Shown here: in pieces, positions 171 through 6,250 of the stretch | Numbering within the stretch: position 1 is the first letter of the stretch | How the letters are laid out: every line of letters begins with the position of its first letter | Origin: Deltaproteobacteria bacterium | GTDB lineage: Bacteria; Desulfobacterota; DSM-4660; Desulfatiglandales; Desulfatiglandaceae | Length of the DNA stretch: 6,250 nucleotides | Reading direction: 5' to 3' | Assembly: GCA_019307645.1 (NCBI GenBank) | Contig: JAFDJF010000162.1 | Coordinates: 1-6,250 of the forward strand | Notes under the pieces: model-generated | The model's input: only the letters and a program-made list of their open reading frames with translations | Database searches by the model: none | What the model was told of the DNA's origin: nothing | Program-made: the position numbers and the translations under genes

Positions 171-599
171 TCATCCATTGGCCTGTTTAAATACCGGCGA
201 CGGTTTTATTTCTGACGCCTTTTCCAGAATTTCTTCTGCCAGATCGGCAAGCGACCTGGGGTTTTCTGCTGAGCCTATGACAATCCCCACACGTTCCTTT
301 TCAAGGCCTATGCCGGCAATGATTTCCTGAGTCCTCTCCACCCGTTTTTTTGCCCTCTGATTTCCCTCAAAATAACGGCAGGCGCCCTCGGGGCAGGTAA
401 TCAAGTAAGCGATATCAGCGAACTCTTCCAAAGCTCTAAGCAGATGTACCGGCTCCAGTCTTCCGCTACAGGGGATAGGGAAAAGCCGAATCCTATGACC
501 ATATTTTTTTTCTAGAAGCTGTCGGTGCCGTTCTCTACTTTCGGGAACATTCTGGCAATAAAAAAGAGCAACGGTAGGCCGCTGATCGTTGTCGGTCAT
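171..599 (-). CDS. MvhD-like hydrogenase/heterodisulfide reductase iron-sulfur subunit
   Basis: 142-residue protein matching the small MvhD/FlpD [2Fe-2S] family, which passes electrons between a hydrogenase or other donor and heterodisulfide-reductase-like HdrA; it should be cytoplasmic. The diagnostic stretch is PCSGRLEP at 43-50 (Cys44), followed by ITCPEGACRYFEGN at 67-80 (Cys69, Cys74) and an AKKRVER helix. The usual N-terminal CxxC is here YCQNV (14-18), keeping only Cys15. Length is normal for the family. The ATG at 599 is preceded by AGAAAGGA (611-618) with an 11-base spacer. The next gene is metV-like, 113 bases downstream, suggesting a MetFV-linked electron-transfer module; the rest of it lies outside the window. 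It is separated from the upstream synthetase-like gene by 353 bases, so it is probably transcribed separately. The family call is firm; the redox partner is inferred. Confidence 0.82.
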   Translation of the reverse strand: MTDNDQRPTVALFYCQNVPESRERHRQLLEKKYGHRIRLFPIPCSGRLEPVHLLRALEEFADIAYLITCPEGACRYFEGNQRAKKRVERTQEIIAGIGLEKERVGIVIGSAENPRSLADLAEEILEKASEIKPSPVFKQANG

Positions 600-952: not shown

Positions 953-2185
953 CTAAAACATATAGATCTGATGGCTGTCAGGGTTCTTCCCAAAACAGGT
1001 GATATCATCAATCTTTTCAAGAACCGGACCCCGGGAAATGGCATAAAGGGTTCTTTCCACGCCAATGCCCCCTCCAAAAGTTTCGGGAAATGTGTTACGA
1101 CCCTGGTTATCCTTTTTTGCAGCCATCATCAGGAATGGACCGTAACCCCCGAATTCATCGATATTCTTGATATTTCCTTCAAAAATAACCGGTCTGGCAG
1201 GTATGATTTCATTATCAAGCAACCGTTCCACAATCGCCTCATAAACCCATTCCCTGACCGCACCGGACAGGATCTCAAGCGCCGGGGTCTGTTTGCCTGT
1301 ATCCCGAATAATACTCTTTGCGCAAATATCATAGTTGTATATCATGTCTGAGTTAACCTCAGATAGCGAAACTTTTCCCTCCGGCCTGAGATAGGGATAG
1401 ACCAAATCGTAGTTCTCCCTCAAAAGTCCTGTTATCCAAAAAAATGGCGCTTCAGTGTCTTCTCCCAGCTTAATCTCAAAGCCGGGGCCGTATTTCTTTT
1501 TGGACGCGTCCCACTTGAAGCGGGGGAATGGCTGTTTTGGCACTTCAATGGCAACTCCGAGGGCCCTTAGGTCATCCTCATTGTTCTCCACCAGTTTGCC
1601 CATTGCGTGGATAATCAGGCGCTCAAACAAATCAATCCCCTTTTCCATATCTTCAGAAAGGATCTTCTTCACCTTATCCGGTTCCTTCAGGTAGGTTTCA
1701 AGATCGATGTCACGGTTCCTCCTCACCTCAACGTCCATCTGGCTGAAATCGATCAGGTACTTGCCCCGCTGCAGCCTGTCGGGGCTTTCAATTTCCAGCC
1801 TGATGTTTGGCGAATCCACAAAGACGCCCTTAATCTTGGGGTTGTGACAGGCCAGAAACTTTGAATAGATCATACTGTGTGTCATAACATACAGCTGACC
1901 CTTATAACTAATGTTGGGGGTATGTTCCACATCATGGGCAAGTGGATCGGTCACCGGGCTCATTTGTATCCGTTCAAGATTAAACAGCCCCTCATCTGCC
2001 AAAAACTGGTGCATCGCAGTCACAAAGGTCGTCCTTAGAGACATGGCAGCATAAAGTGCATCCCCCATCCATTTATTAAAGTAATACTTATCCAGGTAGT
2101 CCTCCATGCTGGAACCGGACTGCTTCAAAGCCGCCTGAAAGTTAAAAAGGCTCTGCCCAATTACGGACATGGTGTCATCTTTCAT
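953..2185 (-). CDS. Class II Asp/Asn-tRNA-synthetase-like catalytic-domain protein, possible asparagine synthetase
   Basis: 410-residue protein with the class II aminoacyl-tRNA synthetase core of the Asp/Asn subgroup. A motif-1-like segment lies at about 57-80 (FLADEGLF...MSPVTDP). QLYVMTHSMIYSK (97-109) resembles the SPQLYKQ region of AspRS/AsnRS. Motif 2 is IRLE (128-131, Arg129 and Glu131) with YLIDFSQMDVEV (143-154). Motif 3 is GGGIGVERTLYAI (371-383, Arg378), followed by KIDDITCFGKNPDS, the counterpart of the RDxxPFPR tail. The N-terminal OB-fold anticodon-binding domain of true AspRS/AsnRS is absent; only about 55 unassigned residues precede motif 1. AspRS/AsnRS-like proteins without that domain include archaeal-type asparagine synthetases, and a position 47 bases behind glnA fits amide synthesis. 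The ATG at 2185 is preferred over Met6 because GGGAAGGAG lies at 2197-2205. The fold is confident; the substrate is inferred, and a tRNA-independent ligase for another acid is possible. Confidence 0.75.
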   Translation of the reverse strand: MKDDTMSVIGQSLFNFQAALKQSGSSMEDYLDKYYFNKWMGDALYAAMSLRTTFVTAMHQFLADEGLFNLERIQMSPVTDPLAHDVEHTPNISYKGQLYVMTHSMIYSKFLACHNPKIKGVFVDSPNIRLEIESPDRLQRGKYLIDFSQMDVEVRRNRDIDLETYLKEPDKVKKILSEDMEKGIDLFERLIIHAMGKLVENNEDDLRALGVAIEVPKQPFPRFKWDASKKKYGPGFEIKLGEDTEAPFFWITGLLRENYDLVYPYLRPEGKVSLSEVNSDMIYNYDICAKSIIRDTGKQTPALEILSGAVREWVYEAIVERLLDNEIIPARPVIFEGNIKNIDEFGGYGPFLMMAAKKDNQGRNTFPETFGGGIGVERTLYAISRGPVLEKIDDITCFGKNPDSHQIYMF

Positions 2186-2232: not shown

Positions 2233-3561
2233 TCATAAAATTGCCAAGTATTTATCAAGTTCGAACTGGCTGACATGGGTCCTGAAAGCATCCCATTCAA
2301 TTTTTTTATTGGCAATAAATTTATTAAATACGTGATCGCCCAATGTCTTTCGTACGAGTTCACTCTTCTCAGTCTCCAGAATAGCCGCATAAAGATTCCC
2401 CGGCAAGTCCGTAATCCCGTGCGCCTGTCTCTCGGCCGGGTTCATTTCAAAGATGTCTTCTTCAATGGGGTCCGGCAATTCATATTTATTCTCAATGCCT
2501 TCAAGCCCTGCAGCCAGCATAACAGCAAAAGCAAGATAAGGGTTGCATGAAGGATCCGGTGAGCGAAATTCAATCCGAGTTGCGGTTTCTTTCCCCGGTT
2601 TATACATGGGCACTCGAATCATGGCAGATCGATTTCTCCTGGCCCAGGATACATACACCGGAGCCTCATAACCGGGAACCAGGCGTTTGTATGAGTTGAC
2701 CCACTGATTGGTTACGGCTGTGATCTCCGGGGCGTGACGCAACAACCCGGCAATATAGTGTTTGGCCAAATCAGATAAATTGTATTTGTCATTCGGGTCA
2801 TAAAAGGCGTTTCGGCTGCCTTTAAAAAGGGACTGATGCACGTGCATCCCACTGCCATTTTCTCCAAAAATGGGTTTGGGCATAAACGTGGCATATACCC
2901 CGTGCTGTGTGGCGATCTCTTTTACAACCAGTCGGTAGGTCATGGTATTATCTGCCATCTTCATGCCCTCGTTATAACGAAGGTCAATTTCATGCTGACT
3001 GGGAGCGACTTCATGGTGGCTGTATTCCACCTGAATTCCCATGTCCTGCAGAGCAAAGATGGTCTCTCTTCTCAGGGTTCCGGCCATATCCAAAGGCCGG
3101 GAGTCAAAATAGCCACCGGTATCAATTATCTCAGTTGAATGATTGTCTTTGAAATAGAAATATTCCAGCTCAGGACCGATGTAATATGTGTAGCCCTGGT
3201 CTGCCACTTTTTTCAAGAGCCGCTTGAATACATATCGAGGGTCTCCTTCATAAGCTGTTCCATCCGGATTCAAAATGTCGCAAATCATCCTGGCTACAGG
3301 CCTATCCCCGCTTCTCCATGGGACCAGTTGGAATGTAGTAGGATCGGGTTTTGCGATCATGTCGCTTTCCTCGATCCTGGCAAAACCCTGAATAGAGGAT
3401 CCGTCAAATCCCATTCCCTCCGTCATTCCCTCTTCAAGTTCTGAAGGTGTAATGGCAAAACTTTTCAGAACACCCAAAACATCAGTGAACCAGTATTGAA
3501 TAAAACTGATATCCTTTTCCTTTACGATTTTCATTACATCTTCTTTGGTCTGGCAGTTCAT
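2233..3561 (-). CDS. glnA: Glutamine synthetase type I (GSI-alpha)
   Basis: 442-residue cytoplasmic enzyme joining ammonia to glutamate with ATP, expected as a dodecamer. The beta-grasp domain (about 15-100) carries FTDVLG (25-30) and GFDGSS (51-56, latch Asp53). Metal ligands fit GPELEYF (129-135, Glu131 and Glu133), SHHEVAPSQHEID (181-193, Glu184 and Glu191) and GSGMHVHQSL (237-246, His240). NSYKRLVPGYEAP (289-301) gives Arg293 and the flap Glu299; RIEFRSPDPSCNPYLA (329-344) completes the active site. The length equals the Bacillus type, and the adenylylation-site Tyr loop of GSI-beta is replaced by HGITDLPGNL (381-390). Arg62 in GFARIEESDM matches the residue used for glutamine feedback in Bacillus GSI-alpha, so feedback rather than adenylylation is likely. 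AGGAGGGG (3568-3575) sits six bases before the ATG. A sigma-54 promoter lies upstream and the synthetase-like gene follows. Confidence 0.97.
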   Translation of the reverse strand: MNCQTKEDVMKIVKEKDISFIQYWFTDVLGVLKSFAITPSELEEGMTEGMGFDGSSIQGFARIEESDMIAKPDPTTFQLVPWRSGDRPVARMICDILNPDGTAYEGDPRYVFKRLLKKVADQGYTYYIGPELEYFYFKDNHSTEIIDTGGYFDSRPLDMAGTLRRETIFALQDMGIQVEYSHHEVAPSQHEIDLRYNEGMKMADNTMTYRLVVKEIATQHGVYATFMPKPIFGENGSGMHVHQSLFKGSRNAFYDPNDKYNLSDLAKHYIAGLLRHAPEITAVTNQWVNSYKRLVPGYEAPVYVSWARRNRSAMIRVPMYKPGKETATRIEFRSPDPSCNPYLAFAVMLAAGLEGIENKYELPDPIEEDIFEMNPAERQAHGITDLPGNLYAAILETEKSELVRKTLGDHVFNKFIANKKIEWDAFRTHVSQFELDKYLAIL

Positions 3562-3617
3562 TAGTATCCCCTCCTGTCCATCAAAAATAATTCTTCATAA
3601 AACTCAGTTCGCTATCT

Positions 3618-3814
3618 AGTGCCCATCCATAACTGACTGTTTTGCCCGAGTTCTGTGTCAGATTCGAATTTTAGTCCTCGAAATATTACAATATATTCAC
3701 CCCAAGGGCACTTACTTCGTGGCGCCTCCGGTTAAAATCCTCATCCTCCCCCGCTCAAGGTCCGGGGTCTTCGACTTGAACTCGAACAAAATATCTCATT
3801 TCTGGATAGACACT
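3618..3814 (-). mobile_element. MITE-like repeat element, copy A, in the glnA leader
   Basis: A 197-bp unit with imperfect terminal inverted repeats of about 38 bases (3617-3653 against 3778-3815). The outer 13 bases are TAGTGCCCATCCA on the left and, in reverse complement, TAGTGTCTATCCA on the right; inner blocks are TTTTGCCCGAGTTC and TTTTGTTCGAGTTC. ATCT lies immediately outside both ends (3614-3617 and 3815-3818), inside a 7-base CTATCTA shared by both junctions, consistent with a 4-bp target duplication. It encodes no protein. A 71-base core at 3668-3738 is nearly identical to copy B at 6160-6229 (four differences including one indel). Inner structure includes AGTGCCC (3618-3624) with GGGCACT (3706-3712), and CCCCG (3749-3753) with CGGGG (3763-3767). 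Strand is given as glnA-sense. It lies between the predicted sigma-54 start and glnA, so it would be transcribed. It may be a non-autonomous transposon, a structured RNA leader, or both. Confidence 0.72.
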
Positions 3815-3817
3815 ATC
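3805..3817. promoter_or_regulatory. GATAG-ACA-CTATC dyad at the predicted start site
   Basis: A perfect 5+3+5 palindrome spans the position where transcription from the sigma-54 promoter should begin (about 3813). It also forms the outer tip of the right terminal repeat of copy A, so it may simply be element sequence. An operator role is possible but unsupported. Confidence 0.3.
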
Positions 3818-3824
3818 TACAATA

Positions 3825-3839
3825 GCAATCTTGGTGCCA
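3825..3839 (-). promoter_or_regulatory. Sigma-54 (RpoN) promoter of glnA
   Basis: The minus strand reads TGGCACCAAGATTGC from 3839 to 3825. This has the invariant GG (-24) and GC (-12) with exactly ten bases between them and a full TGGCAC -24 box; TTGC also matches the -12 element. The predicted start is near 3813, giving a leader of about 250 bases before the glnA ATG that includes copy A of the repeat element. Sigma-54 control of glnA through an NtrC-type activator is classical in proteobacteria, so context agrees. No textbook NtrC site was found upstream; the paired 16-bp repeats are the candidate activator sites. Confidence 0.72.
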
Positions 3840-3913: not shown

Positions 3914-3929
3914 TTACAATTTTGTAGGT
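3914..3929. promoter_or_regulatory. Candidate activator-binding site 2 (direct repeat unit with dyad)
   Basis: TTACAATTTTGTAGGT contains the dyad TACAA-TT-TTGTA (3915-3926) with perfect arms. It is the better-formed copy of the unit at 3878-3893 and lies about 101-116 bases upstream of the predicted glnA start, a usual distance for sigma-54 activators. It does not fit the NtrC consensus with GC-rich half sites, so another activator or chance AT-rich symmetry is possible. Confidence 0.4.
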
Positions 3930-3958: not shown

Positions 3959-4230
3959 TGAAACTATTCAGGTTATAAGGTTCACGGTTTCCCGCTTTCG
4001 CTTCGCTTCAGACGGGATCTACGCTTCGCTCCGACAGTCAAGGTTAAAAGCAATGAAGAAAGGGCTTTATTCTTTACACAAATACCCTGTTCATCCGGTT
4101 TTTTGATATGCCAAACGGTTTTGCACACAAAGTCCAAGGAAAACGCTATGTCGCTCTGGAAACATGAAGAAAATCCCGATAAAATCGGGTTTAACCGTGA
4201 ACCTTGAACCCTGAACCTGGGTAGCTACAA
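3959..4230. repeat. Large inverted repeat R3 between the transporter and the glnA promoter
   Basis: A perfect 13-bp pair, AAGGTTCACGGTT (3977-3989) and AACCGTGAACCTT (4193-4205), lies inside outer ends TTCAGGTT (3967-3974) and AACCTGGGTAGCTAC (4214-4228). The left end, GAAACTATTCAGGTTATAAGG, matches the left ends of R1 and R2. The right arm has the GGTTCAN heptamer run seen in R1 (reverse complement AGGTTCAGGGTTCAAGGTTCAC). The roughly 200-base interior holds a tandem-like CGCTTCGCT motif (4002-4010 region and 4022-4030), short frames with no recognisable product, and the terminator-like hairpin at 4175-4189. No transposase is present. Confidence 0.7.
4167..4189 (-). terminator. Terminator-like hairpin after the transporter gene
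   Basis: On the minus strand CCCGAT-TTT-ATCGGG (4189-4175) is followed by ATTTTCTT (4174-4167). It lies about 100 bases past the transporter stop at 4291, in the right place to end that transcript before the glnA promoter. The stem is only six base pairs and the T-run is interrupted by a C, so strength is uncertain. In the other direction a short TTT also follows the stem. Confidence 0.45.
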
Positions 4231-4290: not shown

Positions 4291-5970
4291 CTATTTGACC
4301 TTTGCCACGGCTTGGGCGATATTGAAACAGTAGTCTCCCATCTTCTCAAAGGCCGTAAGCATATCAATCAAAATCAGGCCCGGATCCACTGCGCAAACAC
4401 CGCTATGCAGCCGTACCATATAATTCCCTCTCATCTCCTCTCTCATGCGATTGATGTCAGCTTCCAGGGCCAGGGCCTTGTCCATGAGGTTTATGTCTTT
4501 TTGCTTCATGGAGTCGATCGTAAAATCAATAAACTTCCGAACCCCTTTGGAGATTTCTTTATAATCGTTCATTCCCCCTTCAGACAAGGTCAGATTCTGT
4601 TCAATGAGTTCCTCGATCAGTTCAGCAACATTTTCGATTGAATCGCCAACCCTTTCCAGATTGTTTGTCATTCGTAATAAGGAGGATATCTCTCTGGACT
4701 CTTCATGCATTATATTTTTTTGCCCTACTTGTATGAGGAATTTGGTGATCTCCTTTTGGAGGATATCAATGGCGTCCTCTCTTTTTCTCCATTTGGCTAA
4801 TTTTTTAAGCTTCCGCGGTTCGAGAGAATTTATCACATCATCATACATCAGTTGCACAGATTCACCCATCCTGATGATCTCTGCCTTGGCTTGCTCGATG
4901 GCAACCGTCGGCGTATCAATAAACCCTGAATCCATGTATTTAATCTTATGCAGTTCTTCCAGCTCTGCTTCTCCTTTTTTGTGCGGTGTGAGCCATATGG
5001 CCACCTTTACCAGGTAGGGCAAAATCATAAGGAAAAACAATGCGTTCACAACATTGAACAAGGTATGGGAGTTGGCGATATGCCTCGCAATGTCGGGCTT
5101 CTCTTCCCCTACGATAAGATCCGGCGGCCCGATACCAAGTGTGGTGCTTGTGAGCCAAACAACAAGTTTCAGAAACAAAGGGAAAAATAGAATTATATTA
5201 AAAACACCAAGTACGTTAAAGAGTGTATGGGCCCTGGCAGTTCGATGTGCATTAATGCTTGCTCCCACACTGGCCAGCTCCGCTGTAATTGTTGTCCCTA
5301 TATTATCCCCGAGAATTACAGCAACGCTGGTCGGAAAATCCAATAGACCCTGCGTAGCAAGCACCATCGTGATCCCTACCGTGGCACTTGAACTCTGCAG
5401 AACCATAGTAAGTATTGTGCCCGCCAGAACACACAGCAGAATATTCAGATAATTATCCGCATTAAACTTTGTAAAAAAGGAGATAAACGTCTCGCTTTCC
5501 TTTAACGGTGCAAACCCGCCCTTCATGGTGGCCAATCCGAAAAAGACCAGCCCAAAACCCAAGAGGACATCCCCGACATAGACCCGTTTTCCCCTACCTA
5601 AAAAGAACTTTAACAGGACACCGGCTGCAATGGCAGGCAGGGCATAGGCCGTGATTTTGAAGGCGATTAACTGGGCAGTGACCGTCGTCCCGATATTTGC
5701 ACCTAGAATGACACCGATGGCCTGGACAAAAGTCATTAGTCCTGCATCAACAAAGCTCACCAACATCACCGTTGTGGCGCTGGAACTCTGGACAATACTG
5801 GTTACAAGCGCCCCAGCACCGCAACCAATAAATCGGTTGTTGGAGACCATACTGAGAACCTGACGCATCTTTTTCCCGGCGACTTTCTGGAGACCTTCAG
5901 ACATAATCTTCATGCCAAAAAGAAACATCCCCAAACCACCGAGAGACTGAAAAATAACCGACTGTATCAT
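4291..5970 (-). CDS. Na/Pi cotransporter family protein with C-terminal PhoU-like domain
   Basis: 559-residue inner-membrane protein. Two inverted-topology Na/Pi cotransporter repeats are clear: QSSSATT (61-67) with GANIGTT (90-96), and QSSSATV (192-198) with GDNIGTT (221-227). About eight or nine hydrophobic segments lie between 4 and 325. A soluble helical region from about 350 to 559 resembles PhoU, with paired LLRMTNNLERVGDSIENVAE (431-450) and MLTAFEKMGDYCFNIAQA (537-554) helices. The family (NptA/YjbB-like) carries sodium-coupled phosphate; some members act mainly in phosphate export or in regulation, and the direction cannot be told from sequence. Length is normal and no frameshift is seen. 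The ATG at 5970 has GGAG at 5977-5980, six bases upstream. It stands alone: 729 bases separate it from glnA, and its leader carries part of repeat copy B. Confidence 0.93.
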   Translation of the reverse strand: MIQSVIFQSLGGLGMFLFGMKIMSEGLQKVAGKKMRQVLSMVSNNRFIGCGAGALVTSIVQSSSATTVMLVSFVDAGLMTFVQAIGVILGANIGTTVTAQLIAFKITAYALPAIAAGVLLKFFLGRGKRVYVGDVLLGFGLVFFGLATMKGGFAPLKESETFISFFTKFNADNYLNILLCVLAGTILTMVLQSSSATVGITMVLATQGLLDFPTSVAVILGDNIGTTITAELASVGASINAHRTARAHTLFNVLGVFNIILFFPLFLKLVVWLTSTTLGIGPPDLIVGEEKPDIARHIANSHTLFNVVNALFFLMILPYLVKVAIWLTPHKKGEAELEELHKIKYMDSGFIDTPTVAIEQAKAEIIRMGESVQLMYDDVINSLEPRKLKKLAKWRKREDAIDILQKEITKFLIQVGQKNIMHEESREISSLLRMTNNLERVGDSIENVAELIEELIEQNLTLSEGGMNDYKEISKGVRKFIDFTIDSMKQKDINLMDKALALEADINRMREEMRGNYMVRLHSGVCAVDPGLILIDMLTAFEKMGDYCFNIAQAVAKVK

Positions 5971-6083: not shown

Positions 6084-6109
6084 CAAGTCCTGAGGGATGA
6101 GGCGTAGTT

Positions 6110-6250
6110 AGTGCCCGAACGAAAACTGTCTTTTTAGTCAATCTCTGCGTCAGAAAAAAATTTTAATCCTCAAAATATTACATATATTCACCCCAAGGGC
6201 ACTTACTTCGTGGCGCCTGCGGTTAAAATTTTGATCTTCCTTGACCTTGA
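6110..6250 (-). mobile_element. MITE-like repeat element, copy B, cut by the window edge
   Basis: It begins AGTGCCC (6110-6116) like copy A and carries the same core: 6160-6229 matches 3668-3738 with four differences, and a 37-base stretch ending in GGCGCCT is identical. The AGTGCCC/GGGCACT pair is kept (6110-6116 with 6197-6203), as is a second pair, AATTTTAA (6159-6166) with TTAAAATT (6223-6230). Its right terminal repeat should lie about 50-60 bases beyond the window. Orientation relative to the downstream gene is the same as for copy A and glnA; it starts 139 bases before the transporter ATG. Confidence 0.68.

Follow-up and report, generated by a model that had tools for sequence, protein, structure and literature searches.

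A probable insertion of a MITE-like hairpin element of Desulfobacterota between glnA and its predicted sigma-54 promoter, with evidence for a family-wide strand bias in pairing

In a Deltaproteobacteria bacterium of the family Desulfatiglandaceae (GenBank assembly GCA_019307645.1), the coding region of glnA is separated from its predicted sigma-54 promoter by a repeat element with inverted ends. The window analysed here, i.e., the whole stretch of DNA under study, comprises 6,250 nucleotides of contig JAFDJF010000162.1. A sequence-only reading of this locus had proposed either a domesticated element acting as a glnA leader RNA or a family of elements on which selection acts as RNA in one direction. 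The customary view of small mobile hairpin repeats is that they are DNA palindromes whose transcription is incidental. The locus raises the question of whether the hairpin belongs to the regulation of glnA, to the biology of a mobile family, or simply to palindromic DNA. The reading that we favour, with a probability of roughly 0.7, is that the feature arose by a single insertion of a MITE-like, non-autonomous mobile element found in Desulfobacterota, whose one-strand hairpin matters to the source lineage and not to each copy. The features of the window are collected in Table 1.

Table 1. Features annotated in the window, with the basis of each assignment.
Feature	Position	Strand	Basis
FlpD-domain gene	171-599	-	domain match
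Gene with weak class II tRNA-synthetase domain match	953-2185	-	domain match
glnA (glutamine synthetase, 442 aa)	2233-3561	-	Pfam Gln-synt_C (1.3e-134), Gln-synt_N (1.8e-30)
glnA ribosome-binding site AGGAGGGG, assigned by eye	3568-3575	-	sequence; outside the long hairpin in the leader fold
Target-site duplication TATCTA, left copy	3613-3618		sequence; 6-bp duplication statistics of the family
MITE-like hairpin element, complete, 195 bp	3619-3813	- (better folding strand, glnA sense)	fold energies; covariance model R1
Left terminal inverted repeat (3' side of the hairpin on the minus strand)	3619-3655		sequence, fold
Insert relative to the 146-bp family consensus, holding AAGGGCACTTACTTCGTGGCG	~3699-3726 (limits by eye)		core also in G001 copy L001, partly in L002
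Small inserted hairpin, compared with the family consensus	~3749-3774 (limits by eye)		L020, L021 and L022 have a similar insert in this place
Right terminal inverted repeat (5' side of the hairpin on the minus strand)	3777-3813		sequence, fold
Target-site duplication TATCTA, right copy	3814-3819		sequence; family statistics
Predicted sigma-54 promoter TGGCACCAAGATTGC	3825-3839	-	pattern match TGGCAC-N5-TTGC
Na/Pi-cotransporter and PhoU domain gene	4291-5970	-	domain match

Counting 11-13 nt past the last C of the sigma-54 match places the predicted start at 3814-3812, i.e., on the first base of the element plus or minus one, in agreement with the earlier proposal that transcription would begin almost exactly on the first base of the stem. 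When positions 3618-3814 were folded, the minus strand reached -70.8 kcal/mol (z -5.1) and none of 200 shuffled sequences was as stable, compared with -47.1 kcal/mol (z -1.9) and 11 of 200 shuffles for the plus strand. The terminal repeats thus form the long stem that had been described; within it, the block TTTTGCCCGAGTTC (3640-3653) pairs with 3778-3791, whose reverse complement is TTTTGTTCGAGTTC. The span given at first was one base too wide at each side, since the element proper lies between two copies of TATCTA. In the predicted fold of the glnA leader (z -3.1), the ribosome-binding site and the start codon are located outside the long stem.

The sequence-only reading had drawn attention to four differences between the arms, all of them G-U wobbles in the glnA-sense strand, where the opposite strand would have mismatches. 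In the two blocks chosen at that time this holds (pairs 6:141, 8:139, 30:118 and 31:117), but over the 48 pairs of the family structure the window copy contains seven G-U pairs together with one A-C (58:89) and one A-G (17:130). Among 121 aligned copies, many of which were found by their similarity to the window copy, U-G is the commonest state at 6:141 (55 copies), 30:118 (67) and 31:117 (64), while pair 8:139 is U-G in only eight, the window copy included. Three of the four wobbles thus coincide with the most frequent family state at their pair, so that they do not represent four independent events at glnA, and most of this signal is inherited and family-wide. A covariance model built from 63 other copies (R1) scored positions 3617-3815 at 73.7 bits on the minus strand and 23.7 bits on the plus strand.

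The relatives of the element are dispersed. In the genome collection, an exact core pattern had a single match, on a Desulfatiglandales contig (genome G001), and a DNA search gave matches in at least 43 of 99 genomes, namely G001, a Desulfatiglandales genome, and its relatives; at most eight candidates per genome were scored in this search and 80 regions were hand-picked among the matches listed, which favours window-like copies. The end pattern was present in all 17 genomes inspected, which had been chosen as copy holders, with zero matches of the reversed control pattern. At E 1e-3 the element had no match in plasmid and phage records. In viral contigs the core pattern was without a match, and the end pattern had one, with no second end in the stretch examined. 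Rfam assigned no family to the window at gathering score and only sR21 (E 3.4) at a relaxed threshold, and no description of this repeat family was found in the openly licensed PMC literature searched by title and abstract opening.

Two sets of copies were assembled. The first contains 81 two-ended copies, including that of the window, and 63 of them measure 145-147 bp with the TA ends counted (typically 146 bp). Left out of this set were seven end pairs that lacked the core motif (four of them representing one place); overlapping pairs were cut to one per place, and the left end of copy L120 is wrongly long. For the second set, 343 hits were reduced to 220 places with one strand each, then to 148 with at least 120 model columns, and finally to 121 distinct insertions.

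Across the 81 copies, the identity between the two flanks peaks at a length of 6 bp, with a mean of 0.81 as against 0.21-0.34 at lengths 3-5 and 7-12; the value of 0.75 at length 2 arises through the shared TA. Perfect 6-bp flanks surround 35 of the copies, and at least five of six positions match in 57. The two middle bases of the TANNTA-like target agree at a rate of 0.76 compared with 0.30 expected (both are equal in 50 of 81 copies), and 12 perfect flank pairs do not have the TANNTA form at all. Together, these two observations indicate a true duplication and not merely a target preference. The element is short and without a transposase gene, no ORF of at least 60 aa being present inside 3619-3813, and it possesses the terminal inverted repeats, target-site duplication and dispersed copies by which MITEs are defined. 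The inverted ends, the perfect 6-bp duplication and the dispersed relatives at TANNTA-like sites mark the glnA copy as the probable insertion of a mobile element.

Some related or unusual forms were seen besides the typical copies. Small hairpin modules, including CCCGCTGACAGCGGG, CCTCCGGCCCGGAGG and others, are inserted at recurring positions of the element in L020, L022, L251 and L258-L260, and a related module also occurs in the subfamily B copy L018. At L250:296-333 there is a 38-bp version with little beyond the two ends and with TACCTA on both flanks. In the window itself, a second relative of the element at 6109-6250 runs off the window end; it scores 63.4 bits on the minus strand with the covariance model, and its left end, TAGTGCCCGAACGAAAACTG, is unlike those of subfamilies A and B.

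No parental transposase with the ends of the family was found in the genomes examined. Two pairs of ends, 3.4 and 5 kb apart, in G002 and G084 were considered as a parent transposon and rejected, as they enclose other genes. At L247:290-5399, ends of the element lie about 5.1 kb apart with an 820-aa ORF between them, and the inner insert appears by eye to be bounded by inverted ends of its own, with a CTTTAA duplication. Many contigs of G066 (L142, L187-L215) end within about 17-23 bases of the ends GTGCCCATCCAGAAATG or GTGTCCATCCAGAAAGG, and these contig breaks suggest a collapsed multi-copy insertion sequence with related ends. One interior end pattern of G066 was present in one of 148 genomes, G066 itself.

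To what extent the hairpin is a property of the family can be read from the pairing of the copies. RNAalifold and the pair statistics were applied to the 63 copies of 145-147 bp only, and gave -43.7 on the minus (sense-type) strand and -11.0 on the complement. At the 46 predicted pairs, 97.6% of the cells hold standard pairs, compared with 25-49% when the columns are slid by one to three. Double changes affect 18 of the 46 pairs (9.9 in shuffles) and 230 cells (65.9 in shuffles), and none of 500 shuffles reaches any of these measures. They occur in the inner stems as well, and columns 30 and 120 are U-G in 36 and G-U in 7 of the 63 copies. Since such values rise both with kinship among the sequences and when the structure is taken from the sequences themselves, tree-based tests were added. 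With an R-scape-like null that keeps the change counts per column on the tree (60 runs), only two pairs remained significant, 31:117 and 55:92, and both belong to the structure.

Neutral descent was simulated in 25 runs under each of two models. The mean energy of the minus strand is -55.0, compared with -36.2 and -34.4 under neutrality (z -6.4 and -7.9), and that of the plus strand is -40.2, compared with -26.4 and -25.2 (z -5.0 and -5.5); the energy difference between the strands also exceeds the neutral null (z -2.6 and -3.4). The minus strand folds better in 118 of 121 copies. This count was discarded as evidence of strand selection, as it mostly reflects inheritance, the neutral null giving about 113 of 121.

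Strand preference was also read from the kind of mismatch that accumulates. By parsimony, single changes away from Watson-Crick pairs were mapped on the tree at 44 consensus Watson-Crick pairs, as the mean of 30 resolutions, and yielded 98 changes to G-U versus 64 to A-C. On internal branches the numbers are about 19 and 10 (p 0.14 against one half), with 25 double changes in addition, and at the tips 79 and 54 (p 0.04). The cells at consensus Watson-Crick pairs comprise 181 G-U and 67 A-C, the pair list behind these counts having been predicted on the minus strand. With a strand-neutral pairing rule, the excess of 13 G-U over 5 A-C columns was non-significant (p 0.10; 503 versus 361 cells). 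Comparison of the copies indicates that pairing is better in one strand, the glnA-sense strand at this locus, owing to a tendency of its mismatches towards G-U.

The same tendency recurs in a second group of copies. Subfamily B, known from 11 copies in G001, has other ends (GAAGNCATCTCAAAAAT) but the same inner design, and the subfamily A model finds all 11 of the subfamily B loci searched, at 35-128 bits and with each best hit on the predicted strand. This strand also folds better in all 11. Counted over 11 rows, with a second, overlong reading of the L017 copy left out, subfamily B contains 59 G-U and 2 A-C over all pairs, and 30 versus 2 at consensus Watson-Crick pairs (6 versus 0 columns). 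The tip GGAAUA-loop-UAUUUCGAGGAUUA is strongly conserved and common to subfamilies with different ends. As the DNA pattern GGAATA-N8-TATTTCGAGGATTA, it had exact matches in 9 of 395 genomes sampled from the phylum, with zero matches of the reversed control, and one genome, G268, has 62 exact tip motifs. In this young expansion (29 unique aligned copies), no G-U excess was observed at consensus Watson-Crick pairs, where the columns with at least two cells are 5 for G-U and 7 for A-C; over all cells there are 88 G-U and 18 A-C, mostly inherited wobbles in an alignment fitted to the model.

At consensus Watson-Crick pairs, A-C is thus as frequent as G-U by columns in G268, but neither in the tree-mapped changes nor in subfamily B. 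The strand bias is weaker than the support for the hairpin, yet it recurs. Covariation, energies and G-U excess support selection of the element family as RNA in one direction, with the qualification that single-stranded DNA would leave an identical mark. The lack of bias in G268 and its mostly inherited wobbles can be read to mean that selection acted on the source lineage and that the resident copies then decayed neutrally. In such a scheme, the hairpin of one strand, as RNA or single-stranded DNA, would matter for the propagation of the source lineage or for tolerance by the host.

The pairing data have to be weighed against explanations that dispense with the selected strand. If the family were a pure DNA palindrome, covariation of the arms might result from the need of a transposase for matching ends or from mutual correction of the arms, and the strand bias from a founder effect. 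We regard this as somewhat unlikely: although the plus strand too keeps its pairing above the null, most of the 118 of 121 is inherited, the strand-neutral column counts are non-significant and the G268 copies are unbiased, a palindrome leaves unexplained the strand difference in energy, the G-U excess among tree-mapped changes, the 30:2 ratio in subfamily B, the presence of both U-G and G-U at columns 30 and 120, and the double changes in inner stems. Strand-specific mutation, e.g., deamination of one strand, could yield G-U pairs free of selection, and same-direction transitions could make all fixed wobbles, as the sequence-only reading had itself cautioned. Rates in unpaired columns of the same strand, however, predict G-U shares of 0.47 on internal branches and 0.37 at tips, below the observed values of about 0.66 and about 0.59, and double changes from one Watson-Crick pair to another would find no explanation, so that mutation bias appears very improbable. 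A narrower version of selection, in which the family propagates or is selected through the single-stranded hairpin of one fixed strand (RNA, or single-stranded DNA recognised in mobility), with the conserved tip as the recognised part and with selection on the source element while resident copies, that of glnA included, drift, is unlikely in so specific a form.

The remaining alternative concerns glnA itself, namely that the element is retained to regulate the glnA mRNA through stability, RNase III processing or attenuation, and is selected as RNA at this place. The predicted start on the first stem base, the leader fold with its ribosome-binding site outside the long stem and the coincidence of the better strand with the sense strand are what such a leader would present. 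Set against these are the orthologues. A search of 61 genomes gave 37 glnA matches at E 1e-100 or better, from which 30 loci were taken; 29 upstream regions were readable, L236 being left out as its match begins at the contig end. None of the 29 readable leaders contains the element, whereas a sigma-54-like site (loose pattern) is located upstream of 16. Sigma-54 control of nitrogen genes is described for Desulfovibrio in PMC4641369. Within this set of genomes, the insertion is confined to the lineage to which the window belongs. Moreover, the target duplication is intact, three of the four wobbles are the most frequent family states, and the sense orientation had an even prior in what is a single case. 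Among the 81 copies, both neighbouring genes are in sense with the structured strand in 17, both are against it in 17, only the downstream neighbour is in sense in 15 and only the upstream neighbour in 9. By the simple ORF rule used, 23 copies fall outside these classes (21 that lack close neighbours on both sides and 2 within a predicted ORF), and no orientation preference was seen among the 58 classed. A domesticated leader is therefore unlikely, and the findings do not support a tie of the element to glnA control.

Under the preferred reading of a mobile insertion, the element would have landed between the glnA promoter and the ribosome-binding site and would thereby give an mRNA with a long 5' hairpin. 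Locally, an influence on mRNA stability of the kind reported for ERIC would be the likeliest consequence, more so than a dedicated switch. The glnA case may serve as a clean natural example of a mobile hairpin at a predicted transcription start. More generally, the pairing record of many copies suggests that the fold of one strand is itself under selection, even though the elements adjoin genes in either orientation. If this is true, a single-stranded form is needed for transposition or for tolerance by the host, which can be tested against the record of G-U versus A-C within the family itself.

Among known hairpin repeats, REPIN and REP sequences form hairpins, depend on a single-strand transposase and are not known to leave a target duplication. 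The Desulfobacterota family differs in this last respect by its 6-bp duplications, and is similar to REPIN and REP as dispersed miniature mobile DNA (PMC3116915). PMC2229807 groups Correia/NEMIS, ERIC, RUP, YPAL and others among repeats some 100-200 bp long that form long stem-loops in their transcripts. ERIC (also IRU or RU-1) of enterobacteria comes close in being short (127 bp), mobile, bounded by inverted repeats and co-transcribed into a long RNA stem-loop, and the same source mentions an orientation-dependent effect on mRNA stability (PMC2229807). The Desulfobacterota family appears to differ from ERIC, as described, in its ends, in the 6-bp TANNTA duplication and in its phylum. NEMIS/Correia of Neisseria are likewise mobile repeats with terminal inverted repeats, for whose transcripts cutting by RNase III is proposed (PMC2229807), but their ends and sequence differ. 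The Ype and Efa families, also dispersed repeats, came to light through their long stem-loops in a survey with G-U pairs permitted; they are stated to lie preferentially near gene 3' ends (PMC1590033), whereas the Desulfobacterota copies have no orientation preference and one is situated at a predicted transcription start. The best reading is that the family resembles ERIC/NEMIS-like hairpin repeats while differing from them in its ends, in a 6-bp duplication and in a strand bias of pairing that can be measured.

A few further observations concern the surroundings of glnA. A partial copy of the element is located just downstream of a glnA orthologue at L232:1301-1480. The window contains another palindromic repeat with GGTTCAAGGTTCA-like arms at 3967-4215 (computed pair 3967-3989/4193-4215), and a second site of this repeat was noticed by eye at about 80-165. 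Upstream of the sigma-54 site, TACAATTTTGTA is present at 3915-3926, and similar TACA-N4-TGTA motifs, detected by eye, precede several glnA orthologues and are possibly enhancer sites.
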